Below are positions 6,806 to 53,800 of a DNA stretch of 64,000 nucleotides, in pieces. Under the pieces are notes generated by a model. That model was given only the letters and a program-made list of their open reading frames with translations, was not told where the DNA came from and ran no database searches. Origin of the DNA: Nereocystis luetkeana (Eukaryota; Sar; Phaeophyceae; Laminariales; Laminariaceae); assembly GCA_031213475.1 (NCBI GenBank), contig JARUPZ010000034.1, forward strand, positions 434,001 through 498,000, in the 5' to 3' direction. Each line of letters opens with the position of its first letter. Positions within the stretch are counted from its first letter, which is position 1. Position numbers and translations under genes: made by a program.

Positions 6806-7330
6806 TTATTATTTCTCTTGCCATCCGACAATGTGCAGCGTGATGATCTGTACCAGGTATACATTTATTGTTGTCGGATGGCAAGCATAAGAATAATAAT
6901 ACATTTACCTTTCATACAAAAAATATGGATCATACAACTTGTTGTGTGTGAAGACCAAACAGCATCAATCAGTCCTTACATTTGCGCCCACGGTGGTACC
7001 GGTATCCGCTATGCATTTACATATACTATTATGTGTATATACAGCAATATTTTTGTTGCAACACGGGGCACACTGCCAGCGGAAGCGTTGAGCTCACGCG
7101 GGCGGACGCGCGGACAACACCCGGGGTGGGGCAAGTTGTACTACATGTATGTCATCGAGTATAAGCATAATAAACAGTTTTAGGTCCGCGGCCGGCGTCC
7201 CCGGCCGATGGCTTGGTAAGGTGGTCCGCGTGCCTATCAAGATCAATTTCGTTGGTTCAAAAGTCTCACCGAGTGCATGCTGGTGGGGATTTTTTCTTCC
7301 ATAAAAAAGTTCTGATTATTAGCCGAAAGC
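6806..7330. other. AT-rich spacer after the LINE, no gene seen
   Basis: Composition shifts abruptly from GC-rich to AT-rich. It holds a TACCAGGTA motif at 6855 and otherwise nothing recognisable. Confidence 0.5.
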
Positions 7331-13973: not shown

Positions 13974-14419
13974 ATATCTGTGGGTTGCTCTGTGGTTGCC
14001 TAATGATCTCATGATTGATGTCGCATGTGGGGGTCAGGTCGGAGTCATCGGGGGTGGCTAAATCCAATAATCCTCGTCCCCGTTATCCCGATCGTCGGCT
14101 CCAAAAAAGATCCTCACTACGAACAGCAGTATGTACAGCAGTACGTACGCAGGTATAGATGCCTTGTCATCAATGGGAATGGCTATAGTCATTCCCATTG
14201 CTTGTCATCCTGAGGAGAAGAGCTTGTATGAACATTCCCTACCAGGTACCTGGTACTTTTTTTTAAGACCCCACTGAGAACATATGAAACTACTAAACAT
14301 CCTGGTATCATCTTCTATTATTCGTATATAATAGCACGCGATAGCTCCATAGCATCTGCGTGTGTGCGTGGTATACTGTAGAACTTTAGGAGCATATCCT
14401 CAGGGCGGAGATAACAAGC

Positions 14420-15331: not shown

Positions 15332-18300
15332 GTGAGTCTTGAGTGGCATTGAGTTTCTGTTTTTGGGCATGTTTTTTTGTAGTGATGATAATAATGAGTA
15401 GTTCTGTGGTGTCGTTTTGGATCCCTGCATGCCCGCCAAACCCACGGCCATGCATGAATGGTTCTAGCTAAACGCAGTGATGCGGAGGCACGCCGTGCTT
15501 CTGTGGGACTGGTTTAGGTGTGCTGCCTATTCGTTCCTGTAGATCTTTGTGGCAGCAATACTAAGTGAGGATGTGTACATGCAACATCTGTTTGTGGATC
15601 GATCAACTAAGCGAAGCCCGCATCTCTCGTACCTGGTAGGCTGCTTGTTGGGAGTGAAGATGTGCATATATAAGGCAAGTAAGACCACACCACGCTCCAG
15701 AGCGACACATGGAGCAGCCGGCATATCGCTGACACAAGCTCACGCATGAAACACAGCAGAGGAAGCCTCGCGAGCTTACGGAATTTCCTCTATATTTCAG
15801 CCACCCCGCGTAACACCCTCCCCGTCCCTCAGGTTTTCGATCAAACTTGGGGTACGTATCTTGTCTCTTATCTCATCTCTTTGACTCAGATGACTCAAAT
15901 GTCTCGTTCGTACAAGGGACTCTTATCTTTCATGTCCGTGTGTGCTACCTGTTGTGTGCATGTTTTTTTCGTCGAAATACTCGAGCCCTTCGCGTGTCAG
16001 TGTTGGGTAGCTGCTGCCTCGAGGCCGCGTAATACCCACAAACCTGTGTTCTCGAGACGATGCAAGAGGCTTGGGCTGCGTTCCCGATACGCATCCATGA
16101 CCATCAGAGCATATCGACTCCTGTTTATTCCAGACCTGAAATGTGTCAATCTTACAAAGCCTACGTACGTCCCATATATATGCCATGTCTCATGTTCATT
16201 GAGCATGTTTCTTCACAAAATCGAGCGATTCGACCGAATTGCACCTCGCAGAGGTCACAGCTGCTTTGCATGCACAGGTATTCATAGCCTCCCTCCCAGT
16301 CAGCTAAAACGCTCAAACCCCATGCCACGTGAAGCTAGATCCGAATGTTTGAGTACGTAGTGCTTGATCGTGTAATGGAGGCCCGCAGCACGCTCGCTAC
16401 TCGTAGTATTAATATTAATACCTGGTATTATTAATAGAAACTCAAGAAACTCTTGAGACAACCTGTGGCAAGTCGCACGGCCCACAAAGACTGCTGTCGC
16501 TACTGCTGTGGCTTTGGGTATCGCTTCACTACACAGTAATACACTAGTACCTGGTACACTAATACAACATTGATACGGCTGCACGAGTAGGCTGTATGTA
16601 CTACTGCTGTACGGGGCCCTCGTATCGGTTTCCTCCCTTTGACGAAACAGAAAGGCATCAACAACACACGAACGTAAGTAAATACCTGCACTCTCACCTC
16701 TCTCACACACTGTAGTCAGCAGCACCAATACGACGCATGTAATAGTAGCTACTACAGGCAGCAATGCAGGTTTCGTACCCGTACTCGTATCTGGTACCTG
16801 GTACGAGTTTTGAGCTCCCCACGGCAGCCAGCCACGCAGAACGAACAAACTGGTGTGTGCGTTTGTGATGGTATGATAACCTCGGGTAGAGAGAGTAGAA
16901 AAGAGATGCACGTACGCGACATGAAGCCATCGGAAAGTATGCTACTGCTGCGTAGTGTAGAGTGTAGATACTGAACACTGCTTTGTCTCTGGTACCAACT
17001 GCTGAACTACACTATGTATACACCTGGCCCTTACATTAATTCAGCAGCAGTAACACGTACTTGAACCAGTACCTGATTCTCTCTGTCCGGAAATGTAAGG
17101 AGTGTAAGGTATTCATACCAAAAATCAAACGGTCATTACAATTCCGGACGGGTATATAGTCCACTCGTACTCGTACGTACTGCAGGTCGCATCGATGCAC
17201 CTGGTGTCGAGTATTGGTCAGTTTTACATATAAAGCAGTACGAGGAGACGCGTTTTTACTGTGGAGGCTTTCTGCAGGTACTGGTGTATACGGATGGCGT
17301 GAAACAGCGCAAGAAAACAGAAGCATGACTCTTTGGAGTTCCATATGCATGTCTGCGGAGGCTTTCTCCAGGTACTGGTGCATACGGATGGCGTGACACA
17401 GCGCAAAAAAACAGAAGCATGACTCTTTGGAGTTCCCATATGCGTGGGTGCGGAAAACCTCCCCATGTACGAGTAGGAGTCGAAGTTTTCGGTACTCCTC
17501 GTCTTTTTAGCGTATTGACATGCTTTAGGTGGCGTGTTTGTATGCATCTCGTGAAAGCAACGTTTGTGGGGCTCAAGCAACTGCACCGGTATTTCGTAAA
17601 ATTATGAACTACGTCAGCTGTGATTTCGAGTGAATACATAGTCGATGCTCAACTGTGCGAGCTGCCTAATGCGCACAGCAGTGGTCGTATATTTATTTGT
17701 AGGCTCGATGCAGTGGGAGACAACGCAACACCAAAAGTATACAAGCATGCGGGTGTGCCGGTTGCAGCAGTTTCTTGCTTGCTCGGTGTTTGCGGGTGGT
17801 GGGGTGACCCTCAACTACCTGATAACGGTCACCCCTACCGTCTAACACTGCAACACTCTTATCACACTGGGTGACAGGGTAACACCCCCCCTCGGCCGAA
17901 TTTCGCAATTGGTTTTCTCAATAACGGGGATAGCGTACCGAATACGCCGAGTGACGCGTCTATCGAAATATCTGGACGGGATATTTTCGAAGGCACCATT
18001 TTCGTCGTGTATGTGACCCCCTTTGGAACCGCAGTCCCGTTGTGGGGACAAACTACTTGAGGTTTGACTGGTTTGTCCCCACATTTGGGACTGCGGTTCT
18101 AAAAGGGTTAAGGCATTTTTTTGGACAAAATCGGTTCCGAAAATCGTTGCTGAGGGGGGGGGTGTTTTCCTGAGTGTTCACGGTAACCCTGTACCCCCAA
18201 TGTTAATATCGGTCGCAACAACGCCAACCTATACCAAGTACCGTATACCTTACCTGGTACCACTTTTTTGGCTGTCTGGTTCCCTCTCACTCCCTTAATC

Positions 18301-21300
18301 CTAGTATCAGCATTGGGGTTACTCCGTTTGTGTGCGGGTTTCCTTTGATACTGCTGTGGCTGGTGCATATTTGCCTTTTACCCCTCACGGCCGTTTTGTT
18401 TATGATGTTTCCCTCTGCTATCATGTCTAGCACTCTGGACGGAATTACAAGGAGCGCTTAGGTATTGGCTTGAAAACTAAACCATCCTTATATTTCTGCC
18501 CAGACCGGTACCAGGTATTAATATCAGTATTACGTACCAGGTACTTACTATGAGTAGTATTAATAGTCTGTGGTAACATTTTCGGGGCAAAAAAGAGAGG
18601 ACGAACAGAATGACTGGATTAACAAGAATCTAGAGTGTGCGACCTTACTATAAATAAGTAATCATAACCAATTTGTGGTGTGTAAGCACAGGGGGATCCA
18701 ATGTTTTTGGGTCCTCTCTGGGTTGTGACAACGATATACAGGCAGTAGTATTTATATGTCCCCCAGTAATAGTTCGAGCTCGCGGACGTTGCCAAGATGA
18801 TGCTGCGCGCGAGTGGTCCGAATTAAACTTGCATCCCCTAAAAAAACCAGCAGCTATGTAAAGCAGCGCTGCGTTGTGTGAGGGATGCTGATTATAATAT
18901 CATCGTGCTGTTTTTATCTGAGGTTTCCCCTGTATGCAAGTTCGTCAAGTCCTGGAGGGGCCCTTCGCAAAGAAAGGGCGATCTGTCGTCCTTCCTGCAG
19001 GCGTAGTACGAACCGCCTCGTCGTATAGTGTAAGCAGAACGCACGGAACCCTGTCTTTCATGTACTTGGTGGACTCGTATGCCCGTAAGTGGGGCACAAC
19101 GTGTCATGGAACAGAGCTTCATGTCACGTGGTATCTTTTGCGAGAGTTTTGGTGTAGTAGGCCCTCCCCACTCTTGCTAACGCTACGAACTACGTTATTA
19201 CGGGGGACCATAGTAAATAGGACCAAATATTGATGGTAAAAATACGGAAATACATAGGTTTTTGAGTGTACCATAGGTCCTATTAACTATGGTCCCCTGT
19301 AATACTATACCAGGTACACCATTAATACCAGTACCAGGTACCGGTACACACCAACCCACGTACGTACTGGTGTAGACCGTCACCCCACCTCGAATAAGAA
19401 ACCCCCGAAAATGCAGCAGAGTATTAACAGTACTACTGCAGGTATCAACATGAACACAGTATTAATAGTATAGATATGTACTGCTTGCTACGCGTACATG
19501 CATGATACTCGTGAGACTCGAGTTGCTCGAAATGTTCATATCAGACTCGTGCATCAGCAGGTCTGTTGTTTTGTATTGGTACTTGTACTGGGCATTGACC
19601 TGAGCATCGACGTTACCGCGCTCTCCCTTCGGGGTATTAGTTGGTTTTCTCTCGTTGAACGTTCTTACGGGTCGCCTTTGGTCGCACCTCGCTGTTCCAG
19701 AACGCTACGATTCGGGGCGGTACGAGCCCTTGAAGCTCAATAGGTTGTGGTTCGGTTCCGACGGCACTGAGCAGAACCGAACTGTCGGGACACGGTGATT
19801 TCATGAATACCTGGTACTCGGAAGATAGTACTGCTGTAGTACTATTAACCCCTTAAGTACCGCAGTCCCGATTTGGGGGCAAATCAGTCTGATTCCAAGT
19901 GAGTTGTCCCCAAAACCAGACTGGGGTCCTAAAACTGTACCAGGTAGCATGAAGCTGCACAATACGGGTTGGAACCACGGTGCTGCAGGAGCTGGAGTTT
20001 TCACGGGTCGATTCGGTCCGAACCGAACTTACGATACTCCTATTTGTATACCTAGTATGCGTTATGTCGGGTACTCTTACAACTCGAAATGAAGCATGCC
20101 AGGGGTGTCCTATATATGATGCCGGTATGACGTCGGTACGTTCTGGTGTTGGGAGGGGGTTGGTTTCTCTTCATGCTGCCTCGCGAGCGGCAGGCACTAG
20201 AGTATATTGGCAGTAACACCACTATTCTAAAACACACTACAGCAGTAGGTATCACCTTACACACAATATCGCTGGGGTTGAGTACCGCATACCAGATACC
20301 TGGTATGCAGGAGTTGTGGACGCTGCTGGCGGTCTGCACCAGGAACCAGAGGGCGGTAGGCATTTGAACAGAATTCCGTCGGGCGTTGGGCAGCAACAGG
20401 CGCAACTGAGTGGTGGCAAGTGTTGGTTTCTGACCATCACAGGTGTGGACAAGACTCCGAAAGCTTGAGCGCATGACACGACTTCCTTGGATTAAATTTC
20501 GAAAACATTGGATGTCTAGTTCGCGTACTTTGTAGGAATATGTTTGCCAAGAAGTGACGGAGGTGCTGTTTTAGCGTTTCCGCACCTCTGACAGTTCATG
20601 ATCTATCTGTCTGTCTACAGTAGATCATTTAGTTCCTCACCTGCCGGTGTGAGAGGTTGTGCAGGATCTTCATAGAACAGATCGAACTCAGGAAACGTGT
20701 GGTATTCATAGATCATGCAGGTTATCCCACTCCCACCCGACAACACGAGCCAGATCATACAATGTCAGGATTACATCTTCCTTGATAGATCTAGACCGTG
20801 AAGATGAGAATCCATGATTTTGTCCTACTAATAGGTGTGAACGTTTCAAACTTCGACAAGAATCCTTTCACATTTCCCCACGTACCCACTAAACTTCGAA
20901 GCATTTATAGCTTCTACGAGTACGTAGGTGCAGTTCCGTGAGGTGCCTCGTCGCCAGCCGCCAACCATATTATAGCAGTAAGTACCAGGTAGGATTCAGC
21001 TCTGGAGGTAGACCCCCCCCCCCCCATCTTCTTTCCTCCTACGCCTTCCCTCGAACGGGATATTTTTCCCTCTGCATAATACACGCTGTGAGTACTGCTG
21101 TAGCTCAGGATCGAGGGGTATGCGGTAAAACCGTCGGGGGCACAGCAGCAGCTGTGAAGATATTCGATATTTATAGGAAAAGAAGCGCATCACGCCATGT
21201 GAGAACATTTCCTTGTGCTCCAAATACCCTTTATTTGTCTAAAATGAAGTACGTACGGCTGTGTACTGGAACTGCTGTCGAGGCCCTGAGAAGGGGTTAA

Positions 21301-24300
21301 CCCTTTTAGAACCGCAGTCTCATTTTGGGGACAATCAATTCAAATTTCAAGTAGTTTGTCCCCAAATCGGGACTGCGGTTCTAAAAGGGTTAAGGCAAGA
21401 AACGCATGGAATTACTATTACTAGAACCCCCTCTTCCTGTGCCAAAATCACTGTACGTATTTATAACAGGGATGTGAACTACCGCAGATTTCAGAGCGGA
21501 CGTACGGGTAAATATTGTCCGAGTGTCAAAATCGCTCGCAAGAACCGTAACCGCAACGAAAGCTACCTACCAGGTACCAAGTATACATTTTCAACAGTCC
21601 AAAAACATTTAGGGATCCAGTATATGTTTCGGCGTTTTTCACCGGGCACCAGCACAATAATCCCGAAACAGCTTGTTCTTTTTTCGAGCCGCATGTGAAT
21701 AGTTTGAACAGAGGAGAACCTGCTACGGGCATTACGCATGCCTGATATGTCTAAAACCGAGTTTATAGTGCATGGTGAGCGTGTACTCACTATTTGCGGG
21801 GGACCATATTAAATAGGACCTACGGTACACACCAAAACCTCTTTATTTCGCTTTTTTTACTAACAAGATGTGGTCCTACCTGGTATTTACTATGGTCCCC
21901 CGTAATAGTAATACTAATAGTGTGTGGTGAACGTGTGCTCAAAACCGTGTGTTGGCGTTGGTGATGGGTTGTAACTTACCAGGTATATACTAACCCTTTT
22001 GGAACTGCCGTTCCGTTTTGGGGTCGAAGTCACTCAAACTATATCAGGGTACGTACCTGGTAAGTAGTATGCCCCCCAGACGTGACTGCAGTTTCACCAG
22101 TCTCTGGAGGAAACGCATGAATGAAGCCTTGGTGCGATTTGGTGGTGGTGGTACGTACCGACGACCTACAAAGACGCACATGCCGCTGTAAACCCAATGT
22201 TTTTGTCACTCCTACCCCTCCCCTCCCATGCTATTCGTACGTACTAAAGTAAAGTAGTCGTACGCATACACAACGCCTGACGCTGATTTTTTAGTATACC
22301 CACTGGTACTCCGCAGTCTAATTTAGCAGCGCGTTTGTCGCAAAAGTTTACGGCGTGCCCTACGTCGCGAAGCACTTTCCTCTTGCAGCTCGCTGCCTGG
22401 GGGCGTTCATTTGTCCGTACCAGGTATATAGGTATATATGTTGAAAGTTTCGACCGTTGACATTGCTATCTTGACATTGCTATCTCTCAAAACCTCCGAC
22501 GTCTGGCCGAGTTTTAGCTGCTCGTATTCTGCTCCTGGCATTTGATTCACTAGTAGTGACCCCTCCGGGACTCCGAGATGACGAACAGAGCAGGAACGTT
22601 TGTGTTGTGTCAACTTCCTATATGCCTGGCATGTAAGAGGAGCCTCAGCGCCCAGCGGTACGGGTGGGGTGGGGTAATGTCGCGCCCTTGCCCTACGACT
22701 CCTTGCATTAACCATGTCACTGAGACACCAATTTGTGACATGCCCCAATCTTGCAGTTGCCGATGTTGTAACCGCCAGTGCCTGTGGTCAATTTGCCCGT
22801 CTCAGATGTGACGGGGGTCACTACTATTAATATTGTTGTTGGTAGTATTACTAGTAGGGTTTTAGGGCAGACTTTAGACCAACAACGTTGGTGATGCGCT
22901 AAACCTCGTTTGTTTGCTGGCCGCATTATAGCTGCTTCAATATTTTCTTTGCCTTTTGGCCTCTTGCTGTGTTTCGTTCGTGTGTTGTCGCCGTCCTCCA
23001 CTGCTTCAAACTGTGCGATGGTTCGTCAGATGACGATGCAGGCAGCGAAGTCCAAGTCTCTGCCATTCATGCCGCAGCCTGCTGCGCTTGACGGATCCAT
23101 GTCCGGTGAGGTCCAGATGCAGCTACACACCGCAATTGTGGTTAGGTCGAACGTATCGGCTTTGTGGAGACCACGTCCAGACCACGTCCAACTCCTTACC
23201 TCTTAAATCGTACCGCCTCCTTTCTCGTATGGCCTTGTCCCCTCGGCGGGATCTCTCTGAGATTGATTTCGTTGCTGACCGCCCCCCCCCCGTTGCTGAC
23301 CGCCCCCCCCCCCCCCCCCCCCCCCCCCCCCCACCGCCGCGAGTGTGGTCACGCGACACAACCCAACTCGGTGCGTCTCCACACCCAAACCTACACAATT
23401 GACTTCACAGCTCGGACAGGCGGTTAATGATCCATCTATCTATCTGATGTATCTGATCTGTCTACTGTAGATCATTTAGTTCCTCATTTTTCTCGTTTTT
23501 GTGAAAGTCTATACAGGATCTGTATAGTACAGATCCAGCCCAGAAAAAAGGAATGTCGTGCTGATTGTGCGGGGGTCCCACCCGGCATCCTGAGCTACAG
23601 TAGATATTACGAAACTGGGAATAGCTTATTTATCTGCCTTGAAAGATCTATGTAGATCATGAACTGTGAATGATCTGTAGATGATCTGAGATGATCTGTC
23701 CGCGGATTAAACGTTTGTAATATCACAACACCGCGCATGTGGTTATTTATCCCTTAGTCTCTGACCACGTTGTCACAATACCGCACGTGTATTTGTTCGT
23801 CGTTTGTTGTAGCCTCTGACCACATTGCTTGGTATCTCTCTACTTCGACTTACGACACACCCAAAACCTGAACAAAGACGATAATATCGCAATACCGCGC
23901 GTACATACATAATCGTTGTCGCCCAGTCTGTGGCAATCTTACTTTGACCCCCTCTACTACTAATATTATCGTCTGCTACTTGCGGGATGAAAAATCAGGA
24001 CGAACATTGGGTGTGCCGATGTCTTGCTGCATCTTAACACTGTCAATAAACAACGTACGTAGGTAGAACACCACAGTTTAGTTTGAAGACAACACACGCG
24101 TACGTGTATACTCGTACTCCTACGTAAAATATTCAAGAAAGTGGATGAGGGTGCTGCTGCCTCTGATGCTGTGTCTTCGCATCATTTACCGTAGTCATTG
24201 TCGGCCTTTCTTCGTACCCTGGCGATGGTTCGAGAGTTTTGTTGACAATTTGGAAGGACTAACGCGGCGCTAGGATTGTTCACAGGCTGGGCTTGTGGGA

Positions 24301-32408: not shown

Positions 32409-33587
32409 GGAGCAGCAGGCCCTTGCCATCCATTGGCGCTGCACTGCAAAACAACATAATCTATTAAACCGTTTGGAATTGTTGTGTAATAACATTGTGG
32501 TAAAATAAAAGCTACCAGGTACCAGGTACGAGCTAGGTACCACGGTTTATGGTCATCAGGGGACATCCGTGGTACATGCCCGGGTTTCGTGGGTGGGCAT
32601 GGATCTTGGGGTATAAAATATGTTGTTCAATGGTTGCAGTCGCAGAACATCGCCCACAGCATTCGGTTTGATCTTTCTTCCTCAAGCTAATTCGTGTCTA
32701 TCTTTCATTGGTGCCGGCGAGGGTGATCACCTCACTCGGGTGCTTCAGCGGTGCTGGCCTTGACTCGGCCTTGGTCAACCCGGCCCGTCCGAAGAATTCT
32801 GCAGATTTCTCATGGGTAATTTTTTTTTCGATGAGGCAGTATGGGACGGACCCGACTCCGCAATTTACTATGTGAATTACTACTGTATCCCCTACTGCTG
32901 CTGTTGTGGCATATGCAGTTTCCTCCGGTTGTTTACTAGGTCACTCGCGCGTGGCAGTAAGTACCATAGCTCTTCTGACTGCCAGAACGGGTGAGTGTTT
33001 CGTCTTGCAACGGCAGAGTGAATACGTGGTGTAACAACAAAACATTCAAATAGAGGGGGTGCGGGGATACCATAACGTTAGCCTACCCTGGAGGGTCGGA
33101 TAATATATACCTGGTAGGATAGACGCATATATTCGCGATCAAGATGGAACAGCATCCATCTGGAAAAAGTAATATATCGAGCATGCAGCGTTTCACAACC
33201 CGCTACAAGCACTCCACACACCTCTGTACATTTGCATATAGATGTAAATTATTTAATGTAGGATTATACTGTACGGTATGTGTTTAGGATTATCTAACGC
33301 AAGTATGAAACCGACGTCATTTGTAACCGCTCGTCGGATAACAGCAAACCCAACGTCGCCTCGACTCGCATATTACATACCAGGTACCAGGTGCCAGGTA
33401 CCATGTATCAGGCATCAGGCGCACCCAGTCCGCGTGTGTCGTCAGTTATCAGCCGTTCGAGCCATGGTCAATTGCTGGCGACACTCGAAGGGTGGGCGAG
33501 CGGCGGCATTGTTAGCCAGCTCGTGTATCGCGCATCACATCCCCCAATATTAAATAGTTGAGTAATACCTGGTATAGCTGCATAGAA

Positions 33588-33603: not shown

Positions 33604-34071
33604 AAAACTATACGCACGGCAATATGATGAATCTGATTCCGATCCTGCAAAAACGCCCCATCGTTTGGCGTCACCTGACGTCCGTCCCATCGGTCGCCCT
33701 GGTATAACATACGGTAGCAGGTGCCAGGTAAGTCACAATGACGTTCCATTTGGCTGAAGTGGATGTTCGCAGTCGCTAGGTGACCGCAACTACGTATTGT
33801 TTCATTGTTTCCTTGACGAATAAAAAATACCAAAATCTAACGAAAATGTACCACTTTGTACGAAAATATAAGGAATGTTTGGGATTCAACGTACGTACCC
33901 AGACGTCCCTTATACGTTGATACTCAAACGGTCTCCACGCTCAACGACAGATGAGTATATAGTACATGGCTAGCATGTCGGCATAAAAATGTACCAGGCG
34001 GGGTATACTAGCAGACCGAAGCGACCGCGCTCAGCGCGCACGTACCCGCGCTCGCGCACGGGCCGGCAGCG

Positions 34072-34203: not shown

Positions 34204-37200
34204 CTGGATCACAAACCAAGCGTGGAACACGGCACGAGGAAAGAAAATATTCAAGAGGACACATCAGCGGGCTCACAACAAAAAGACAAAACGACACCAC
34301 ACTCCTAAACAGGCTATACTTAAAATGTAACAAGTGGGGTGATATTTGTCGGCGACATCAAGCACCAGGTGCGAAAAGCGTGTTTATTATTTTCGCTTTA
34401 GAATGACGTTCCCCTTGTCTGGGTCGTGGTGTGTCGGGTTCAGTTTGTTTTCCTGCACCCCTTGGCACATATTAGCTATTAATAGCACATATATGCATGT
34501 AGTACAGGTGTCGCAAGGAACTCGCGAAAGCAGGATACTTGTAACTGTCGTCAACTTGTGTGCGTGCGTACGTGCGGCATATATACGTCGGGCGCTTAAG
34601 GAAACTCGAAATGGTTTCTCTCATTTTTTCGGCGCCGTCAACGGCTAAAAGGCACACTCGCTTATAAAAACATGCACTTTGCATTATATATGTTTTATAC
34701 CTGGTACGCAGCATCTCCGGGAGTTTATTTTTGTCGCGGGTTGAGTGTCTGATACACCCTCAGTTCATTCAGCTACAAATACAATTTCGATATATGATGC
34801 GCAAATTTAATCGCTCACCTCCGTTTCCTTGATCCCGCATTGTTTATTTATCTTGTCCTGATTCTTATCGTACCAGTCCAGCCTGTAATTGTTGCAAAGG
34901 CCGAACAGCAAGTAGTGCGCGTATTTGCATGTCAGTTTGCTTAACAGTACAGCTCATCATGTACCGCTCCGGACTGCTACGCTATGACGGAACTGCAAGG
35001 AGCGTTTAGTCTTCAGTCTTCGTTTTGATGCCTGAACGATACTTCTATTTCCGTCATACCAGTCCAGAGTGGTACCCGACACCATGGTTGACGCACACTG
35101 GGTAAGAGACGGAGATGACCAACCCTACACATCTGTTGGTTCGTCAACCATTGGGGGTAGGGTTATCCTGGCCTGTCATCATGAGATGCTGTGCAGGATC
35201 CGTACAGTAGTACAGATCCCAATCAAGGAACATGCCCTACAGTAACGCATGCAGTGTAAACGGCTCCCGCCAGACAACATGAGCTACTGTAGATCATACA
35301 GATCAGGAATATACCTATCTGGTGTATTCACTCTGGAAAAATATTAACACAGATCAGGAATATATCAATCTGATATATTCACCCAGAAAGTTCTAGATAT
35401 TCAAATGGAAATCGATGATCTGTCCAATAGAGATACCAGGTACACTCTAACCACGGAGTTAAACAGTGAGCACTGGCTGCTGCTAGCTCGGTGATAAGGT
35501 TGCATCTCTAATATAAACACAATCCGGGGTCCACTGGGGTGACTATTAGCTCAGTGGTTAGGTTGCCTCTCTAATATAAACACAATGCGGGGTCCACTGG
35601 GCGCTAAGCCGGGACCTCGGACTTACTCAAGGGTTGCAATCCCTCTAGTCAGCACTGCCCTGAACAGGAGATATTAGGGCGTTTATTCTTGCCTGGAAGT
35701 GTGTGCCATGCCTTCAAGGTGTATGTTCCCGTAATTTCAACGGCTTTCAGGAAAAATGGCAAGAAGGACGTTGGAGACGTTTGAACCCCGACTTGTGATT
35801 TTTATCAGAGATACACCCTAACCACCGAGCTAAACAGTCAGCGCAGGCTGTTGGCTCAGTTGCTAGGGTGTATCTCTTAACCCTTTTAGAACCGCACTCC
35901 CATACGTGGGGACAAAAACCTCTAAATATGAGTATTTTGTCCCCAAAACGGGACTGGGGTCCTAAAAGGGTTAAGTAACTTGCCTGTGGATTAGGGTGTA
36001 CCTGGTATCTCGATTGCTGTCCGGGTTGTGGAGTAATCGTTGCCGTGATATTAATAGTACTACAGTACAAGGATGGATTTCCCTTCAGATACTTGGAACA
36101 GGACACAAATCACAAAATTAATTGACTCGGGAGGGCCAACCACTTCCAAGACTACTGGAGAATTGAGTACTTGCTGCTGTGATACACGGTTCAAAACCAT
36201 CACCGTACTGGCTGCTGCGATACACCGTTCAAAAACCATCACCAGGGCTATACTGCAATTATTAGCTGGCTAGGTTTTACACTTACTGTAGTTACGTGAG
36301 GTAGTTAATCACAAAGCGGAGACCTGCGCTCTTGTGTCTGACTGGTTGGGTCGACATGTGTGTACCAAGTGTTTTTCCCATTAAACCAAGCCTTACTTCG
36401 CCACCCAACTACAATAAGTAGCCGTCCCGTCCAGCCAAGGCCTGCCGTATTTATGCGCAAGGCCTAAGTTACTCACAGACCTGTGCAGTATTTATAACCC
36501 TTAAGAGGCTTGAGAGGGAGGAAAGGGGCCTCAACAAAAAACGATCGCAGATCCTTTTGGGGTTCAGAAAACGATCAAAACTATTGACGGCTGTCAAGGG
36601 AGAATCAAAACAAGAAAAAAAACACCACAAATCATTCTAGAGTAAATAAAACGGCTAAAACAGTTGACGACTGCCATACAGCGCCGACCACACCACATTT
36701 GACGCGTGCTACCTCACTAGAGGTGTCTCTTCTACCACTTGCCCGCCAAAACACTTATTTTCGACGGGGAACAGTTGCCCTTTTAGGACTGCAGTCAAAA
36801 ATTACTTACTGTAGAATTTGAGTGATTTGTCCCCAAAACGGGACTGCAATGGAGGCTAAAAGGGGTTAAGACACTGACGGCAGTGGCAGCACTGAGGAAC
36901 TGCCCACTGAGGCATGCCCTATCGTTGGGAACACATTCGTATTTTGTTAAGAGTTCAATTCAGAAAAGGACCAAAACAATAGACGAGTGTCGTACAGCGC
37001 AGTCTTTAAAAGGGTGATGATCCTCAGAAAAATGCAGACGCACCCCCCTGCGGTAGCATGCGTCATTACACAGTGCAACTCCTCACAGTCTGTCGGTCAC
37101 ACATGGTCTGTTTGACTGTCTGTCTGTCTCACAGTCTTGTTTGTTTCGCAGTCTGTCCGTCTGTCTGTCTCGCAGTCTGTCTGTTTCAAAGGCTGTCTGT

Positions 37201-40200
37201 TTCACAGTCTGTCTGCTTCACAGCCTGTCTGCTTCACAGCCTATTTGTCCGTCGGTCTCTTGTCTTCCTGTCTGCCTGACTTTCCAGTCTGTCTGCCTGC
37301 CTGTCTCACATTCGCGCCTCCGTCCTTTCGCTCACGGCCTTGTCCATCGCCTCCCGTTTGTCCTTCGACATCAGCTCCGTCGAGGTCATCACGACTAGCC
37401 TCTCTGGCGCCACGAGTCCCTCCCGCACGTCTTGCCTGGGCGACGCCAAAAAAAAAAAAAAAAGCGACACATTGTGAAAAAATGATATTTTTCTCGGAAT
37501 GGGTTGAAAAAAGAAAAATGTTCTCGGACAAGAAAAGAGGTAAATTTCCTGGACTATGCAGACCCTGCACTACACCTCATAACGGCTACAATCTGGGATA
37601 TCCGTAGTAAAGAACATGACGAACTCTTCTCGCGATTAAAAAGAACTCGAACACACCACACCATAAAATTCCACTATGACAAGCACACGGTCGACGAGCG
37701 AGCGCGTCTAACTAATCTTACAGCAGGAAGAAATTAGTTTCAACCTCTCAATCGGTCGCACTCACAGCTGACGTAATTCAACCATTTCATTTATTTTTCA
37801 AAATGAAGGCGTGCACCGTAGTCGGGGGGGGGGGGGGGGAGGATTGCCCGGTACGTGAGCTTCGAAAAGTCAAGACGACTTTGGCGAGAAACAAGGGGGT
37901 AGATATTACGGGGGACCATAGTTAACAGGATCTATGGTACACACAAAAAAACAATATATTTGCCCATTTTTCCTTACAATATTTGGTCCTATTTACTATG
38001 GTCGCCCGTAATAGAGCAGACTGAGACATTTTTGTCTGAAAACGTGGGTCAAAGTCGATCAAACCCCGCGCTCGTTGGCGAGCACCTTTGGCGTGCTGCG
38101 GCTAGAACATGTTTTGGGTTGAAGAACACTTTTTTTTTGTAAAACAATATCCAACCTTTTCCGAGAAGAGGCTCCCACGCGGCAGCATGAGCTACGCAGA
38201 TCATACAGATCAGAAATATACCGTGAAACACGCATGCATGATAACACCCCCCCTCATAATACTGTAGCAGTAGTTCCGAAGCTGGGTCTCTCGACAATGG
38301 AGAAGGCACAATCGCCGAGCGATGCGTTTATGAAAACATCTCGTCGACATCTCTCCAAAGCCAGCATTTTCGTTGCAGATGCCCCCCTTGGTTTTGAGGA
38401 AACCGGCTGGGAAAATTCGAGCCAGGGTAGGGGGTGTGTTATCTTATCACCCGTGTGATAGTCTTCTACGGTAATACATACCTGCCCTGAAATATGTGGA
38501 TAATGAGGTGGGAACCGACGATCTGTCCGAGGTGAGTAAGGTTGTTGACTATAGTTGGTAGTTGGTTGATAACGGCTTGTGGAGGGTGTATGCCGCACCT
38601 GAGCTGCTCGTTCTTCTTCAGGTTGAAGGCAAGCTGGCGGGCCTTCGCCAGGTAGTCGTCCTTCTTCCTCGCATACGGGGTGTTGTCGTCCATAGCGCAC
38701 TCCACGTCCGTCGCCACTCTCGCCGCCGCTGCGTGAGGCATACCTGGTAATAGACGTGCGTTCAAAATAATGTCATATTACACCTGGTACAGTAATAGCC
38801 CTTCACCTTATGAGTTATCAGGCAAATCCGTAAGGTGATCATAAGGTGAAGCCGATGGGTTCGACTAAAAATCCATCGCACTACATCTTACCACTGCAAG
38901 CCCTCGTACCCAGTACTGACTCATCAGGAATACCTACTGTGCGAAGTCGTTAGTTTCATACTTGGTATGATACCTGGTATACATTACTACCCATCACAAT
39001 TCTTCACACCATTACGTATACATCTCATAATACTCCTACAAGCTACATACGAAGAAAACCCTTAAGATGACCCTGAACTTAAGTTCAAGTACCACCAACA
39101 CCCATGAGTAGACGTGTAATACGGCACAGATAGCGGGCGTCTATGTTTTCAGAGGCCGCTAACTCGAGAACCTCTTCATCTCTCCCACAAACTGAATTTG
39201 AGAAAAAAATCAACGCTTAATCCTCTTAGGACCTCAGTCCTGTTTTGGGTGCAACCTGCTTAGTATTTGAGTGCTCTTTGCCCTCAAAGGGACTGCAGCC
39301 TTAAAAGGGGTAACCTCGGCCTATCGTATTATTAACGGGGGACCATAGTTAATAGGACCTATGGTATACATAAAAAAAACTATAGGGTTAACCATTCTTA
39401 CTAACAATATTTGGTTCTACTAACTATGGTCCCCCGTATAAATAGGCGTTCGAAAAACATTGTGAACAAAATTGAGATTCACGATGCAATGGTTGGGTGG
39501 TTCTTCAGTTGAGGATTGACGTCGGTCAAAAACGTTTTGCCTTGGAAGGCAAAAAGGTGCTATAACCTATCTATCTATTGATTGCATCTCTATGGTACAG
39601 CAGTAAGCCATCACAATACGGGTACCACATGGGCCTGCCAAGCCTCTGCCGGAACTGTTTTTTGGCCATGCCGCACTCAACATTACGCATCTGGGCCCGA
39701 AATCTTGACACTACTACTATTAATAGTGCTACTAGTGCTATTACGGGGGACCATAGTTAATTCCTCGTAGGACCTATGGTATACATGAAAACCTACCTGG
39801 TACCAGTATGTATTTAACCATTTTTACTAACAACATTTGGTGCTATTAACTATGGTCCCCCGTAATAGTACTACTACTATCGTCTTGTGCATTCAGTGAC
39901 TGACACATTGCCTGCTGGCGTTTTTTTGTTATATGATAAACTAAACGATCCGAAACAAACAAAAAAAAGCGACCGTAAGACCTTTGCCAATGGAAACGCG
40001 AAGTTCAAAAAAAAATATATATATATATATATACATTGCTTTAAAAAAACAGCCAAAAAAATTATCGGACCGCCGCTGTTGGAAAAAAAGAGTTTTTTTT
40101 TTTTTTTTTTTTTCCCCCAACGGCTGCAGGCGGCGCAATTTGTTTTTTCATCTTGCAAATTGTCAACACGGTGATCGAAACCAGCTCGTGCGACGATCGA

Positions 40201-43200
40201 CGCTCGATCTCGACATAGACTCAGCCCACGGCCAACCCGCTCGGTATCTGGCAAGGCCAACGACTATAGATGAAGGCCTTGAAGATATCAGGTGGATCCA
40301 TGGTCTAGGGGGCGAGAGCTTGCCGGCGGCGTCCCACGGTATCCTCCCAAACCTGAAAAAAAGTCTATTTTTTGCCGTTCGAGACGGATGGAGAAGTTTT
40401 GTCTTCTGTTTTGTGCAAACCAGCGGCCAAATGTGTTTGTATCATACGCCTGGTCAGCTCCCGCCACATGACACCTGCCATGGTGTGAAGACAGTGACCC
40501 TAGGGTGGGTCGGAGCCCCTAACGAGCGCACTCCGTTCAGAATTCACGACGCAATCGTTGGTTTTGTTGATCGATGTCTGTCGAGGACTCAGAATCTCGC
40601 CGCTTCGCCAAAGATCGGCCTGAGTTTTTCTCAAGCCGATATTGGCCCAACATCGGCCCCAGATTTGCTTTTTTCGGGCTTTTCCAAAAGCTAGGAACTT
40701 TTTTTTTTTCACGTGGCCCATAGGAAGCGCGTTCTGAATTTTTTTCGCGGGTATCTTTGAAATTCAACCTTTTTATTGAAACTTCCGCTGTCCCATTGGC
40801 ATAGGTCTAAATCTCCTGAAATAAAAACGAAATAGTCCAGCACCGAATAGCTTTGCAACACGTGCGTCGCAAACATGGGGTTAGGGTTCGGGTTAGGGTT
40901 AGAATTTGTGTATTCCGGGTACGGGTATGCAAGACTTACAGAACTTACAGGAGTTCCGGGTATCGCGATACGGGCGTACCGAACTCACAGAAGTTCCGGG
41001 TACGGGTATGAACGTCATACATGACTCACAGAAGTTCCGGGTATCGTGGCGCGGGCGTACCGAAACTCACAGAAGTTCCGGGCAGGTAAAAAAATGTTGT
41101 ACCCGTATCCCGGGTATTGTGACACACACGGGCATACATAACATACATAACATACAGAAGTTCCGGGTACGGGTATAAATTTCGTGTACGGGAAATGTCT
41201 ACACAACTCCAAGAAGTATCGGGTATGGGTAATACCCCGGGTATGGTCCTGTACATACCCTACAGAAAACAGCCTTGAAAATTCAGATCGAAATTCGCAA
41301 AATGGAGAGCAGGGTGGCTGTAGTACCATTTGTGTTCGATATCAATTGCTAATACAGGGGACTCGTTTATTGGTAACGCATTTCGATGGGTGACGGATTG
41401 AGCACATAAACTGATACCAATCCTCTCATTGTGTCTTTAGTACCCTCCACACCAAATTTCACTCTGATATACCTCTGATATATAGAGGCATGCCGTGAAG
41501 AGCGTTGGCATGGTGTATGATCGTATTTCGACGCTCGATTATTCCAGCGCGGGCAAGCTGCTTAAAATACCGCACAACAACACCGAATAAGGTGTTTTCG
41601 GAAAGAGCCGGTCGAGAGTCTTCCGAAAATACCACAGCAGTGATCGACTTTAGCACCCTTGGCCTCGTTAACACTTCCGGAACTGTTAGGACTGCAGTCT
41701 CGTTTTGGGGACAAACCATTCAATTTCTTAGTAGTTTCTCCCCAAAACGGAACTGCAGTCCTAAAAGAGCGAGCGCTGAAAAACGATCGCACCCTTGTGC
41801 GAACCCGAACGCTAAACCTTACCGAAACGCTAAACCTTACCGAAAACACTGAACGACGCGAAATCGGGAACACATTTTTTTCGGCCCTGTCACACTTGTA
41901 TACCACTCTGAAACGGAAATAAAAGGAACGCTTCGTATGAATATTGCTGTACCAGTAGTACCTAAACGATCCTTGCGTTTCCAGGCGGAGGGGCAATGGG
42001 AGTTCTGTGCACGGTACACGGTACAGCAGCATTTGGACGGGTGACGAATAGAGCAAATAAACTGATCTCGATCCTCTCCCCCGTGTCTTCAGCGCGGTCT
42101 ACACCAACGTTCACCTTGATCCGGAACGCCGACGAGTTTTGGACCTCCTTGTGATACGGATGTTGTGCGCACCGTATTCCGTACCTACAGTAGGTATTGT
42201 TCCACTCACGTAACCGATCGCCCTCCGTAAACCCCAAGATGAGGGTGTCGAAGATCTTCCTCCTCATCTTCAGACGGAACGGGGCTACGCCGACCTCTGT
42301 CAGGGCCTCATCGATCTCCACCTCCGCCGATAGCTGCTCGTGGTACAGGGCATACATATTTTTTTTTGGGGGGGAGGGGAAACATCAGCTGTGACATCAA
42401 GTCTTTTTCGTCTAAACTCATCTTTGTCAGGTGTGGGTATTACTATTACCCGTGACCATAGTTAATAGGACCAAATATTGTTGGTAAAAATGGTTAAATA
42501 TATAGGTTTTTATATATACCATAGGTCCTGTTAACTATGGCCCCCCGTAATAATACTGCTATCGCGCGTACTACGGGTTGTTACACGACGTCGTGCATAC
42601 GTTAGTGGTACAGGCTGGTTCATACCTACCGCCCCGAATTGACTTCACCTCCGATGTACACGCCTTTTTTAGGGGGATAACACCCTCAACTTTCGCACGT
42701 GTGTTCTATACCTTTGCCCACCCGTTACCGAATGTGTTTGTGTTTTTTTCGCCAGATACTTTCTGTTCGCGCATTTTTTTCGAGTATTTGGGTCTCAAGA
42801 CATCCGAACGTTCCGGCGAACGGCGAAGAAAAGAAAAGAAAGCCCACTCGGGAGCGGCTTGACACCGGTTCATAGAATACGTGTGCCAAATTTCAGATTT
42901 CTATGATATCTCCTACAAACGGCGTGGACATTGGGACTTTTGTGCGGTGAAAGTGCAAAAAACACGGCGTCGCCTCGAAATGACTTAATTTCAGTATGTG
43001 ATGAAATTCCAGCGCTAGACATGACTTGATATTCATTCCTCCGGAGTCAGCTGTTCGAGTGTTCGCGCGAAACGTTTTACAGACATGCTTCGGAGAAACC
43101 GGAACCGGTTCGCCTACAAAAACGTATACAGGTACCAGGTACATGACAACAACAACAAAAAATGGTGTACCGACGCGGAAACGCCTACTGTTTCTGACCG

Positions 43201-47083: not shown

Positions 47084-50000
47084 CACGCTTTCTTTTGCTG
47101 CTGTCTCCGCACATTATTGCTTTCATTGACGCGTGCTTGACTCGCGCGATGACAATTGAATTCTACAAATCCCGCCAGCCGTGACCTCTGACCGAATACG
47201 TGGATGGGATACTCAACTTGGCGAGCTGCGTTGCATTACATGTTTGCACCATGCGTCGGTGCGAGGCGGACGCCTGCGGACGACGCCACGGTGTGTTGGG
47301 CGCCCTGGGCGGACTCCTCTCCTGTGTGATTAACCCATACCTGGTATAGGACTGCCGTCCCGTTTTGGGGACAAACTACTTGGAATTTGAGTGTTTTGTG
47401 CCCATAACGGGACTGCACTTCTAAAAGGGTCAAGGTTATGGTGTGGAGTACGCAGCAGGGTGGGTCGGTACCTCGGGTCTACCCGGAACGCAGTGCCACG
47501 CCTTGGGTGTGACCTCAAAACATGCGTAGAATGAGGCGGCACTATCTGGGGGAAGGGGACCTGGCATCCACATCGGCGAATTTATTTTATTTCCAAGAGA
47601 GCTTGGTTGCTGCATGAATTGTCCGCTAACGCTTATATTTAGGGGCATAGTGGTACACTACACTAGGTGACACACGGCACCGTTTCTGGTCGACGCCAAT
47701 ACGGGGCTTGCAATCGATTTATTGTTCACGTACAGTAGTACCGCTTCCCTCCCCGCCGTGGGTAGCGTGGAGTAGGCGCCGGATGTATGATAAGCATGCG
47801 CAAATCAGATACGGCTGTTAATATCGTACGAATGAGTACCATGTGTACAACACGCACACACACCCTGGATTGATTTTCCGTGGTGATTAAAAAAAAAATA
47901 GAAGGGGCACACATACACACACAAAAATGGGGGCTTTGAAAAGATCTTGCCGATATCTTTCCATAGACATCGCTCGGTGTGCGCACTATACCGGTTGGGC
48001 AGAAAGCACATCCATCACCTTGAAAATTCGTCTGAGGGATCACCCTAGTGTGATAGTCTGTTGGCTGTACTCAGGAACACGACACATAAGATCCATCGTA
48101 GATTGAGGAGTTCCATGCTGGAAAGGGATTCTGGTAGTAGGGTATTGGGATATATTCTGGTAGTAGGACGTTGGGATGTCGGGGTAATGTGTGCCCACCA
48201 ATGGCACTCGTTAGGTGTAGCTCCATATGAGGCGAGTCGACTCGACAGCTCGGATATAATATGAGAGGAGTTCCGTGTTATTTGTCTGGAGCCAACCACG
48301 CGTTCCCGTGCCATCTGCGTCGGTACCTTGAGACATCAATCAACAGAGTCTTATAGCGACATTGGTGCCAGGTACATGAGAGTGGCGAGAGGGCTGTCTC
48401 GCCTAGGATTCCAACAATCTTGCGGCGCTGTCAGTCACTACTTGCCCACAGGGCACCGCCGTATTCTACGAACGACAACACAAAAAACATCTGGGAATAC
48501 GAACAACCACACAGCAGTACAATGGTTGCAGTACAAACATCCACGACCGCGGTGAACTGGAGGCCTTCGCGGAAGATCGTCGTGATATCATATACCAGGT
48601 ACCTGGTACTAGTTTATCAAACGTGTGATAGGGTATCCAACGACGGTTGGGCGAGAGCCTGTGGCCCACAGTAGTTTAGGAGAATACCTTTAGGTGACGC
48701 AGTCTTCTCGGTCTTGGCGGTCCCCTGTACCCCCGACGCCTCGGCCACCTTTTTCCACTTCTTCACCAACGCCTTCGCGTTATTGGAAACCCGTTCGTCG
48801 GCGTGTTTCTTCAGCTTAGAAACGGTCGACCCGACCTTGCTCTCCTTGAGCAGCGCCAGCGACATGTCGACCCCTGCCAGTGACCCCAACACGTCGCAAA
48901 CGCGCTCGGCATCCTGGACAGCGCGCGCGGGCGAAGTGGTCGACGTTACGGTACAGCTGTACAGTAGTTATAACACGACGGTTTCAAACCGAACAGTTTG
49001 AACAAGTAATACGTTAACCCCTTTAGAACCGCAGTCCCGTCGTGGCGACAAAAATACTTGAAATTTGACTGGTTTGTCCCCAGAACGGGACTGCGGTTCT
49101 AAAAGGGTTGAAGCAACATACACTATAAATAGGTTTCCTCAGACACCGCGAGCCTTTGTACCCCCGCCCCCCGGCTGAAAAGGAGATATCGCCTAGGGGG
49201 CATGTCTATTTTGTCATTTTCACGTCAATTTTCAGGGTTTTCCGTTGTATGGGATGGCGCTTAGCGAGACGCACGCAGATTTCAATATGATTTGATACGC
49301 ATTGGTACCGAGTACGGCGGTTCATTCTATTGGTCCTTACGACGTCCGTACACATATCGCTGCCCGCATAAATCTATTACGGGGGACCACAGTAAATAGG
49401 ACCAAATATTGTTGGTAAAAATAGCGAAATACCTACCCGGTACAGGTTTTTGTATGTACCGTAGGTCCTATTTAATATGGTCCCATGAAATACTGGCAGC
49501 AAGTATATCATGGTATACCGCCCGTACGCCCGCACCCTGCCCTACGGCCTGTGGTGTGTGCGACTATTATACTGACTGTACTATGAATAGTGCTAGATCT
49601 ATACCGCCGTATCACACTGGGTGGTAAGATAACGCACACCCTGGGACGAATTTCAGACCCCGGTTTTCTGCTAAACATCGGGGGCACACACAACGAAAAC
49701 AGCAGTGGCTCCGGAAAGATTTAGCGAGAAGGTTGCATATTGCATATACCCATCGCTCGGTGTATACGAGCACGCCTTCCCCTTGTCGAGAAACCCAGCT
49801 TCGGAAATGGTCCGAGGGGCTGTGTTATCTTATGTATAAGGTACTCGTACACGATCTGTATGAAGCTACAAGTATGCAGCTCTTGTTTACTGGCAAGAAT
49901 TACCTTGCTGCTGTGCTGCATCTAATAAACTTACTCATAGAGTATCATACCTGGTACTCGTACCTGGTATGTAAAATACACCGACACGACCCATATGCTA

Positions 50001-50865: not shown

Positions 50866-53800
50866 GTGCGTGCGCATTACATCCCATTGTTCGAACGCAA
50901 TCGTTTAGTGGTTGTGAGAGTGCCTTGAAATTGAAATGCAAGAAGATGTGGTATGGGGTGCGGGCGCGCTACCACTGCTGCTGCTGGTGCTGCCTGTACG
51001 TAAGCCGATGCAACCCACACGCTGTGCGAGTCGAGCCCATTGAGTGTGGATAAGGGTGGGATCTAATGCATGGCTTCTAGTCTGAGAGGCAGACGGGCGC
51101 GTTGAAAGTTCGGAACAGCATGCCTTTGTGTTGGGATTCGTACATAGTGCAGCCCCCTCTCTCTTCCTTCCTTTCGTCCGATATAGGGTAGGCACAATTC
51201 GATGCGAGTCGACGAGGGAAGAAAATGCTGAAATCTTCTCGCGATAAAAATGAAGGCACGTAGCGGGAAGGGGGGAGAAGAGCCTGCTATGTGACCCCGG
51301 ATCTGAGTTACGAGTTGGAAGGAGAGAGAGAAGAAGATGTGCGAAGATAATGAATGGGAGCAAAAAAAAAAATATCGTCACACACTCATACTCCGCGACA
51401 ATCCGATATTCATTCAGGGGGCGCTCGTGAGTCGGGATGTGATATTGCTTCCCTGCAGCCCTGACGTACTCGTATACCAGGTACCTGGTATAGCGTTGCA
51501 CGACGTATAATAGAATGCTGCATTTCTGCATGCTTGTGGCGCGGCATTTGCAGCTCGAACGTGTGTACCAGCCTTGTTGAAAAGCGATCGATCAGCCTTC
51601 ACACAGACGGGAGGGGTTGGCATGGCGGTACGTACGAGTACTTGCATGGTGGTGTACTTGGACCGGCATTGTCGGTTCCCCAAAGCTGTTCTGCCTCCTG
51701 CACTCCATGCTCTATTACGGGGGACCACAGTTAATAGGATCAAATATTGTTAGTAAAAAAGGTCAAGCATATAGATTTTTATGTATACCATAGGTCCCAC
51801 TAACTATGGTCCCCCGTAATAGTTATTATAGACGATACACCGATATCATGACGCTGCCGAGAGCGTTCTGAAGAAGCAATACGCAGCGCCTTTATTTGGG
51901 CTCCTCCAGGAACATCACAGCAGCTGTTGCGCTTACTTTCTTTCGACCACGATTACTCTCCTTGATTGAGGAAGCTGGAAGGAGAGATGTGCACATGGTC
52001 TCAATTCTTGATGTCTGGGAGCGTACTCGTACATGCAGCAAGCAGCAACAGCAGCAGTAGTCTACGGGCTCCTTTCCCTTGCGGTCATGGCCCACACCTG
52101 GTATCATACCTGGTAGGCAGTACTCTTAGGCAGTAGTAGTATTGGCCCCACGGAACACGAAGATAGCCCCCCTATATTGCGTAATCCTGTCAGGACTGCA
52201 GTCCCGTTCCGGGGACAAAGTACTTGGAAGTAGACTGGTTTGTCCCCAAATCGGGACTGCGGTACTAAAGGGGTTAAGTGGGCGTATATCAGGCACCGGA
52301 CATCTTTTAGAGAGTACAGGCGCTAAGCGGCTCGAATGACGGTGCGAGCTTACCATAATTTTTTCGACCGAAAACTAAGATACCACCAGGAAACAGCAGT
52401 AGGGCGCTGTGTCTATCTATCACCCCGCCCCGCAAACAGCAACCTATCGTATGTCGGAGTACGTACAGCGTACAGTTTCAAACGAGCACCGCAAAGCCTA
52501 GATAGACCATGCGCGCAAAATGACGAGCTTTTTTGTTTTTTTTTCGTACTTGGTCCGAACTACGCAACGCTACGACTCCTCTCACTGCTGTCACAGCTGC
52601 TATCTTGATTCTTGATCTCTTGATATATCTTGAGCCCCGACGCCTCCGCTCTCTCATCTTCGGCACACACAGGTACCAAGCTCTGAAAGTAGCTTGTGTA
52701 CGTAGGGATATACAGACTCCGGTATCCCCAGGGCTTCGATGTGCACCACTCCACCACTATTCTCGTTGTATACCCAGGCATGATCGAATACGCATCGGCC
52801 TAGTGATGATGACGTCAGTTTAGCTCTAGTTGGAAGTATATCTTCGATTGCCATAGTCGCCGCATGCGGCATCCTCGACCCCAGATGATTTCATGGCAAC
52901 CACCATCGCACGCACGTTCTCGAGTGTCATGTGGGCCGCATCGAGCATTCACCAATTTCATAGCCGCCGCATTGAGCATCCTCAACACCTTGCAGCCACG
53001 CCGCGGACTATTGACTGTCATAATAGCCATATTGAATTATAGTCCCTACCAAAGTCGCCAAATCGGGCATCGTGAATCTTCCTATCCGTCGCATCGGGCA
53101 TCCTCGACTACTCTATCTACTCACTGTACCAAAGTCACGATAGCCATGTTGAGCACCCTCGATAGTCGTACCGACAGAGTATCATCGCCGCGTTCATTCT
53201 CCTCAACATGCCATCGCGTTCCGCACATTCTTTAAATCCTTACACCCATCACCTGGGGGCAATGGACACCCCCGGCAGACTCACCCCCGCCCCCGTCATC
53301 ATTTCCCGCGGTAGTAGATGATATGTTAAGCCCATCTCAGAGGCGGCGTAGACGCTTTCCGTGAGTGTTCTATTAGTAGCGCGCCTAGAAAGGGTGCGCC
53401 GCAGTACGCTAGTACGCCTGTCACCATTCTGCGCAAGTGTTGCCCAACTCGTTCCATTGCTGTATCAGTGTTGAGTGCCGAGGCATTCGTTCCCTACGTA
53501 TCTCCTACGCCCGTAGCCGGGGCCGCCTGATGTGGCGTTGTGGCAGATGATCGGTCCTGTAGTCCGCCATTTAGCAGGTTGGGCACCTGCCTCCCCCCCC
53601 CCCCCGCCTCGTGTCCTCACTTCCCAAAGGACTTTATTGCGCCCTTGGTTCCTGTCCCCACATTCTTGCTTGGTCACTTTGTTTGCTCAAGGTTTTGCTC
53701 TCTCTCTGTTTGTCCACGTTATTGTTGATGAATGCTGTATTGATCATCTCTTGTTATCACCTTGTTGTTGTCCACTTTCTTGTTATTGTCCGGTGTTCTT

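Follow-up and report, generated by a model that had tools for sequence, protein, structure and literature searches.

Introduction

Transposons of the Sleeping Beauty/Tc1 type target TA, and their first nick falls three nucleotides inside the element, generating 3-nt 3′ overhangs; end-joining after excision is reported to leave a small footprint (PMC7827188). Scars of Triticeae Stowaway elements are described as retaining end pieces of 1–4 bases, in several kinds (PMC1925063), and in a survey of all rice DNA transposons perfect excisions are given as 8 of 94, the others carrying deletions or filler (PMC4423477). In the brown alga Ectocarpus, abundant and mostly non-autonomous Tc1/mariner elements are reported (11,912 copies in 17 families), and the words "footprint" and "excision" are absent from the main text of that study (PMC12477816). 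In genome sequence, traces of excision are often untidy or difficult to interpret.

Here, we analyzed a 64-kb stretch of the Nereocystis luetkeana genome (the window; C34:434001-498000 of an assembly whose largest contig is 21.9 Mb), in which the 9-base palindrome TACCWGGTA recurs. Two nested samples were used, one of 264,000 b (the window plus twenty 10-kb stretches taken at one fixed offset, L031-L050) and one of 315,559 b, which adds 51,559 b (L001-L030) picked for holding the motif; because of these motif-picked stretches, counts in the 315,559-b sample are not density estimates.

Results

TACCWGGTA is abundant and sharply defined

The window contains 57 copies of TACCNGGTA, in which the middle base is W in 55 and S in 2, compared with a dinucleotide-shuffle mean of 0.91. 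Across the genome (465,085,209 bases, 1,987 contigs), TACCWGGTA occurs 182,395 times, a mean of one per 2,550 bases, and the reversed word 1,744 times, so the genome-wide excess suggested by an earlier, sequence-only reading of the window is borne out, the count staying far above chance. TACCWGGTA is its own reverse complement, and forward and reverse counts are therefore identical sites. The density is uneven, with 55 copies in the window where the genome mean predicts 25, and 54 in the twenty other 10-kb stretches where it predicts 78. The window also contains, at 3343-3603, an array of 29 copies of the 9-base unit CCCGCTCCC, very C-rich on one strand.

The word tolerates little variation. 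In the 264-kb sample, the exact word has 109 copies against 0–11 for each one-base variant outside the W pair, and the ratio of W to S at the middle base is 109:11. In the 315,559-b sample, TACC-N1-GGTA is observed 151 times (140 W, 11 S) against 6.2 expected, while TACC-N0-GGTA is observed 18 times against 4.9 and TACC-N2-GGTA 26 times against 5.7; spacings N3 to N6 are close to expectation, and N7 and N8 are raised again, mostly from tandem scars and repeats. The W joint makes up 140 of the 195 occurrences of TACC-N0..2-GGTA, and the spacer and variant counts together indicate that a single joint dominates. Eight tandem pairs are found among the 140 copies of this sample, and tandem scars in the window lie at 14240..14255, 48593..48608 and 51475..51490 (TACCAGGTACCTGGTA) and at 32513..32528 (TACCAGGTACCAGGTA).

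Several other TA-bounded words also exceed a second-order model in the 264-kb sample, including TATTAATA (58 observed, 2.1 expected), TACTCGTA (49 and 8.6), TACAGCAGTA (28 and 0.9) and TACWGTA (107 and 36). These words are possibly scars of other TA elements, though the model under-predicts such words generally. TATTAATA fits a 105-b MITE, TA|TTACGGGG...CCCCGTAA|TA, which is present in the sample and whose ends are wrong for a parent of TACCWGGTA.

TACCWGGTA arises by insertion of exactly 7 bases at TA

Our analysis of repeat-borne copies shows that TACCWGGTA is an insertion of 7 bases at TA. The 7 bases were removed by script and the joined flanks were searched in the 315,559-b sample, where 15 of 140 copies lie in repeats by a strict rule. 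Specifically, 11 of the 15 have an empty sister lacking exactly the 7 bases at TA and 5 have a second filled copy, one copy having both states; among other TA-N5-TA sites, which served as control, 102 of 1,093 lie in repeats, and an empty sister exists for 12 of the 102 and another filled copy for 95. The difference in empty sisters (11/15 versus 12/102) gives a Fisher p of 1.4e-6, and of 2.5e-7 without the 3 of the 12 control sites that overlap or adjoin a CCWGG copy. The best pair, filled L035:1888 and empty L043:2417, is 98.8% identical over 82 b, and the TACCTGGTA scar at 21877..21885 of the window (plus strand) is matched in the sample by 15 empty sisters. In a separate alignment scan, TA+CCWGG+TA accounts for 7 of 33 distinct 7-base indels between repeats, and the only other TA-type indel is a single occurrence. 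Some copies are ancestral in their own repeat, as in the units C1_85904:3377, 6357 and 9023 and C1_58040:3186, all of which are filled. Thus, the 7-base insertion at TA that the sequence-only reading had proposed holds, and its suggested comparison of copies with and without the 7 bases does not show the motif to be ancestral in each repeat family.

That reading had drawn the insertion from two filled sites, TACCAGGTA at 35434..35442 (7-base insert CCAGGTA) and TACCTGGTA at 35999..36007, both given on the plus strand, which it matched with empty TAs at 35812..35813 and 35871..35872, respectively. The sites and the TAs are present as described, although the resemblance is short. The 35999 site matches the 35434 site when read on the opposite strand, and the two align to each other (92% over 26 b); hence the two pairs are probably a single insertion event in a duplicated hairpin unit. 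The flank search in the 315,559-b sample returns no empty match for either site (0 and 0), both lie outside the 11 repeat-borne copies with an empty sister, and the case for insertion rests on other copies. The variable middle base, formerly cited as support, loses its force, since TACCAGGTA and TACCTGGTA are reverse complements and A or T reflects the strand only; the informative contrast is W versus S, and the preference for A/T over C/G fits CCA ends.

The hairpin-like repeat units at 35440-35510 and 35806-35877 include tRNA-like stretches (GCTCAGT). ARAGORN calls no tRNA and Rfam gives no match (0 and 0), and the "tRNA-like repeat cluster" of the sequence-only reading is therefore a likeness only. 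Short inverted-repeat elements, (T)TAACCCTTTTAG...CTAAAAGGGTTAA, resembling piggyBac MITEs, are found at 35877-35974 and 21298-21392, the former with TTAA at both edges.

A MITE family carries CCA...TGG ends and TA flanks

The genome contains a MITE family, TA|CCACTCTG...CAGAGTGG|TA, with a usual TA-to-TA span of 83 b. With TA included in the pattern, both 10-base ends are perfect in 202 copies genome-wide against 0 for the control, in agreement with the earlier prediction of full elements with TA flanks and CCA...TGG ends. The CCACTCTG MITE has short terminal inverted repeats and the duplicated TA of a TA insertion. Among 50 places listed, the span is 83 b in 26 and ranges over 70–90 b. Single ends, TACCACTCTG, number 5,814 genome-wide against 549 for the control. 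Longer ends number 253, and their outer flanks vary in the 100 listed, indicating that TA|CCAC is the element edge. In addition, HNNNNACTNTGTCCGGAAA has 426 genome-wide matches against 4; in this search, whose query lacks TA, TACC precedes ACTNTGTCCGGAAA/ACT in 42 of 88 listed matches, 12 of 100 having been left out as coming from one duplicated segment.

The family is eroded and heterogeneous. A profile search yields 17 pairs of ends, of which 8 have TA at both edges, four of these 8 being one duplicated locus, and the other nine have eroded or ill-placed edges. Of ten sites that were read, four (L051-L054) share a common flank and six (L055-L060) differ, and several right ends are eroded. 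In nine copies picked for perfect 10-base ends, arm-to-arm identity is 0.71 over 36 nt, the majority sequence of the 18 arms is TACCACTCTGTCCCGAAATATAAGGACCGTTTGGTT, and the inner sequences are only 56% alike, which points to an old and diverse group. TA-flanked inverted repeats beginning with CCA form 11 pairs in the sample, against 1 to 7 for control words. One of the 11, TA|CCACAATGTCCGG...CCGGACAGAGTGG|TA (L038:244-411), folds far better than its shuffles (z −6.0), and ends related to it are spread through the sample, the window included.

Members of the family are also present in the window. An old MITE of 113 b TA to TA, TA|CCGCTCCGGACTG...CAGTCCAGAGTGG|TA, at 34962..35074, is 360 b from the focal sites. 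At 18428..18510 lies an 83-b MITE, TA|GCACTCTGGACGG...CTGCCCAGACCGG|TA (end E-values 0.11 and 0.0032), whose right-hand TA also opens a TACCAGGTA scar at 18509..18517 (plus strand). Probable MITEs are located at 17076..17158 (83 b, ends eroded; 8.2e-5 and 0.29) and at 41901..41995 (left end reading TA|CCACTCTG, the right one eroded; 0.015 and 0.89), and MITE ends at 33849..33892 (TA|CCACTTTGTACG, plus strand, 2.7e-8), 6961..6999 (TA|CCACCGTGGGCG, minus strand, 6.1e-7) and 47614..47658 (TA|CCACTATGCCCC, minus strand, 2.7e-5).

Candidate transposases and autonomous parents

The DDE_3 profile (PF13358) has no match among the 30 candidates scored; RVT_1 and RVT_2 reverse transcriptases are present. 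The open protein P0001 (55043-57754, minus strand, 904 aa), with 56 matching stretches in the genome, has no Pfam match over the cut-off and no PDB match; presumably it resembles IS630/Tc1/mariner-type transposases, and it was set aside as the source transposase as it has no convincing TA-flanked inverted ends. A high-copy element of ~820 b with ends GACCTATGCC...GGCATAGGTC, at 59022-59843 and, on the minus strand, at 39978-40808, was rejected as parent on account of its TAA duplication and GACC...GGTC ends, which are Harbinger-like. Of 5,009 candidate places 40 were scored, and the 39 near-full copies listed are 94–95% alike. The edges of the match at C8:8091547-8091550 point to an empty site there, and the element looks like a non-autonomous PIF/Harbinger element.

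Scars and MITEs share end sequence and possibly TA spacing

CCA and TGG overlapped by one base give CCWGG, and each scar keeps both TAs with element-end bases between them (TA-CC W GG-TA), as a footprint does, in a genome that also holds CCA-ended elements. We infer that CCACTCTG-type elements are the source of the scars. A MITE docked on a scar at one common TA, TACCWGG-TA-CCACTCTG, occurs 127 times genome-wide against 0 for the control. Of the 1,151 MITE ends preceded by a TA at a distance of 7 bases, these make up 127 (11%), a share equal to that of CCWGG among all TA-N5-TA in the 264-kb sample (109/1,024), so that no attraction beyond the spacing is needed.

The spacing itself is suggestive of a tie between scars and MITEs. 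Of scar half-sites, 33% have a TA at a distance of 7 bases, versus 7% for TA in general; without tandem scars the value is 27%, other distances of 2–14 from scars give 8–17%, above base, and seven other TA-bounded words give 5–12%. At MITE ends, a TA lies 7 bases away in 1,151 of 5,814 cases (19.8%), but the spacing-8 control is also raised (809/5,814, 13.9%, not 7%), in part through a duplicated GTACGTACCTACC flank with a TA there that is still in the count. When 100 listed MITE flanks were thinned manually to 57, 9 of the 57 have TA at −7 (p 0.037); A stands at −6 in 28% of MITE flanks versus 46–49% of scars. The raised spacing-8 control and the differing base at −6 make the link weaker.

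Lesser joints compatible with CCA ends are also in excess over the second-order model in the 315,559-b sample (observed/expected: CCGG 18/4.9, CCAG 26/10, CCATGG 3/0.3, CCA 78/43), but so are non-fitting TA-bounded words (TA-C-TA 802/432, CCG 74/43, CCACGG 4/0.5); since the model under-predicts TA-bounded words generally, the lesser joints are weak evidence. Scars outnumber exact MITE ends in the genome by ~35 to 1, and 109 scars compare with 8 profile-found two-ended MITEs in the 264-kb sample. A search of the flanks of 17 MITEs in the sample yields no locus seen empty, with a MITE and with a scar, and a genome-wide check of one repeat for these three states gives 3 matches, none of them informative.

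Discussion

We consider it quite probable that TACCWGGTA is the excision footprint of a TA-inserting, Tc1/mariner-like MITE group with CCA ends, as the sequence-only reading supposed; insertion, excess and CCA...TGG elements are all found. Given such a footprint, the CCACTCTG group is reasonably likely to be the main parent. The element would be short, carry CCA...TGG ends, move by cut and paste, and duplicate the TA into which it goes; the likeliest source of the scars is a large old group of ~79-b palindromic MITEs, TA|CCACTCTGTCCCGAAATATAAGGACCGTTTG...(inverted)|TA. A Tc1/mariner-type transposase would cut in such a way that each flank keeps three element bases (CCA) as a 3′ overhang, the departing element leaving TACCA and its mirror image. 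These overhangs would be unable to pair except tip to tip, with A meeting A; the 2-base gaps would be filled and the A/A mismatch (TACCAGGTA) repaired either way, to A or T, giving TA-CC(A/T)GG-TA, the empty site plus exactly 7 bases. As CCA overhangs do not pair, the predominance of CCWGG over CCATGG (140 to 3) needs unusually regular repair. The same joining rule acting on TTA-ended elements would give TATTAATA.

The chief rival, which we think unlikely, attributes the scars to a different TA element, rare or lost, whose own termini are CC(A/T)GG and whose excision leaves 5-base overhangs. Such overhangs would pair fully except for a middle A/A, which would account for the one dominant joint (140/195), and a separate parent would explain why MITEs and scars differ somewhat in the flanks they prefer. 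However, no convincing CCWGG-ended inverted-repeat element is present in 315 kb, the pairs found being scar pairs or at chance level (for example, L045:6568-9378 has CCAGGGTC at both ends with 4/16 mismatches, and control words give 1–7 pairs each). Apart from TA, each sequence that follows TACCWGG among the words listed occurs at most twice, and we know of no 5-base stagger in the Tc1/mariner superfamily. Known footprints of other superfamilies fit poorly: PIF/Harbinger (Tourist) elements make a 3-base duplication and excise mostly precisely, whereas the insert here lies at TA and adds 7 bases, and piggyBac elements target TTAA and excise seamlessly, whereas the insert lies at TA and the scar flanks lack TTAA.

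Two readings dispense with a parent element. That a repair or editing process inserts the heptamer directly would suit an insert so tiny, uniform and common, but it is very improbable given that the genome holds TA-flanked elements whose ends match and that the target preference spans ~7 bases on each side, as for a transpososome, the symmetry of this preference following from the reading method. CCWGG is a known methylase site in bacteria, and the great excess of a short palindrome, carried by four tandem units at the same place, would be in keeping with a conserved site for binding or processing that was spread by selection or inside ancestral repeats. We find this account scarcely credible, as the word is mostly present or absent in repeats by exactly 7 bases and its contexts are otherwise diverse.

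If the scars are excision footprints, they could also be self-seeding. Each scar is itself a TA-N5-TA, and scars favor a TA with another TA 7 bases off, so that every excision would write two new favored targets and growth would be autocatalytic. We hold this idea tentatively, as possible rather than probable; if true, it would account for the tandem scars (8 pairs per 140) and the scar-docked MITEs (127), and would imply that repair has long resolved almost deterministically to a single joint.

As a class of trace, footprints are already known, and what is unusual here is their number and regularity; none of the literature titles listed concerns a scar of this sort at comparable copy number. 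Nearly identical scars, about 180,000 in all and ~35 per exact MITE end, would record where elements left, and would allow excision versus insertion, the joint rule of end-joining and the target preference to be measured. The scars amount to small-indel variation in 0.27% of the genome, and would show the share of such variation made by one element group.

The TACCWGGTA scars share features with known systems and depart from each. In Sleeping Beauty, CAG overhangs pair save for a middle A/A mismatch and the scar is 3 bases plus TA, whereas CCA overhangs would meet only tip to tip and the scar is 5 bases plus TA. The Ectocarpus element TcMar-N1_Ec32, likened to the ~83-b MITE by description rather than by sequence, is reported as 217 bp (PMC12477816). 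Submariner MITEs of Pandoravirus salinus and Acanthamoeba, also likened by description, are near-palindromic and TA-flanked in the same way, but are given as 243 bp in 30 copies, and the main text of that study does not use the word "footprint" (PMC4495683). Stowaway and Osmar, the plant mariner-like MITEs, are described as sharing the short element, the TA duplication and scars that keep both TAs and end pieces (PMC1925063, PMC4561436). Unlike the excisions reported for Stowaway and for rice, TACCWGGTA scars are dominated by one joint.
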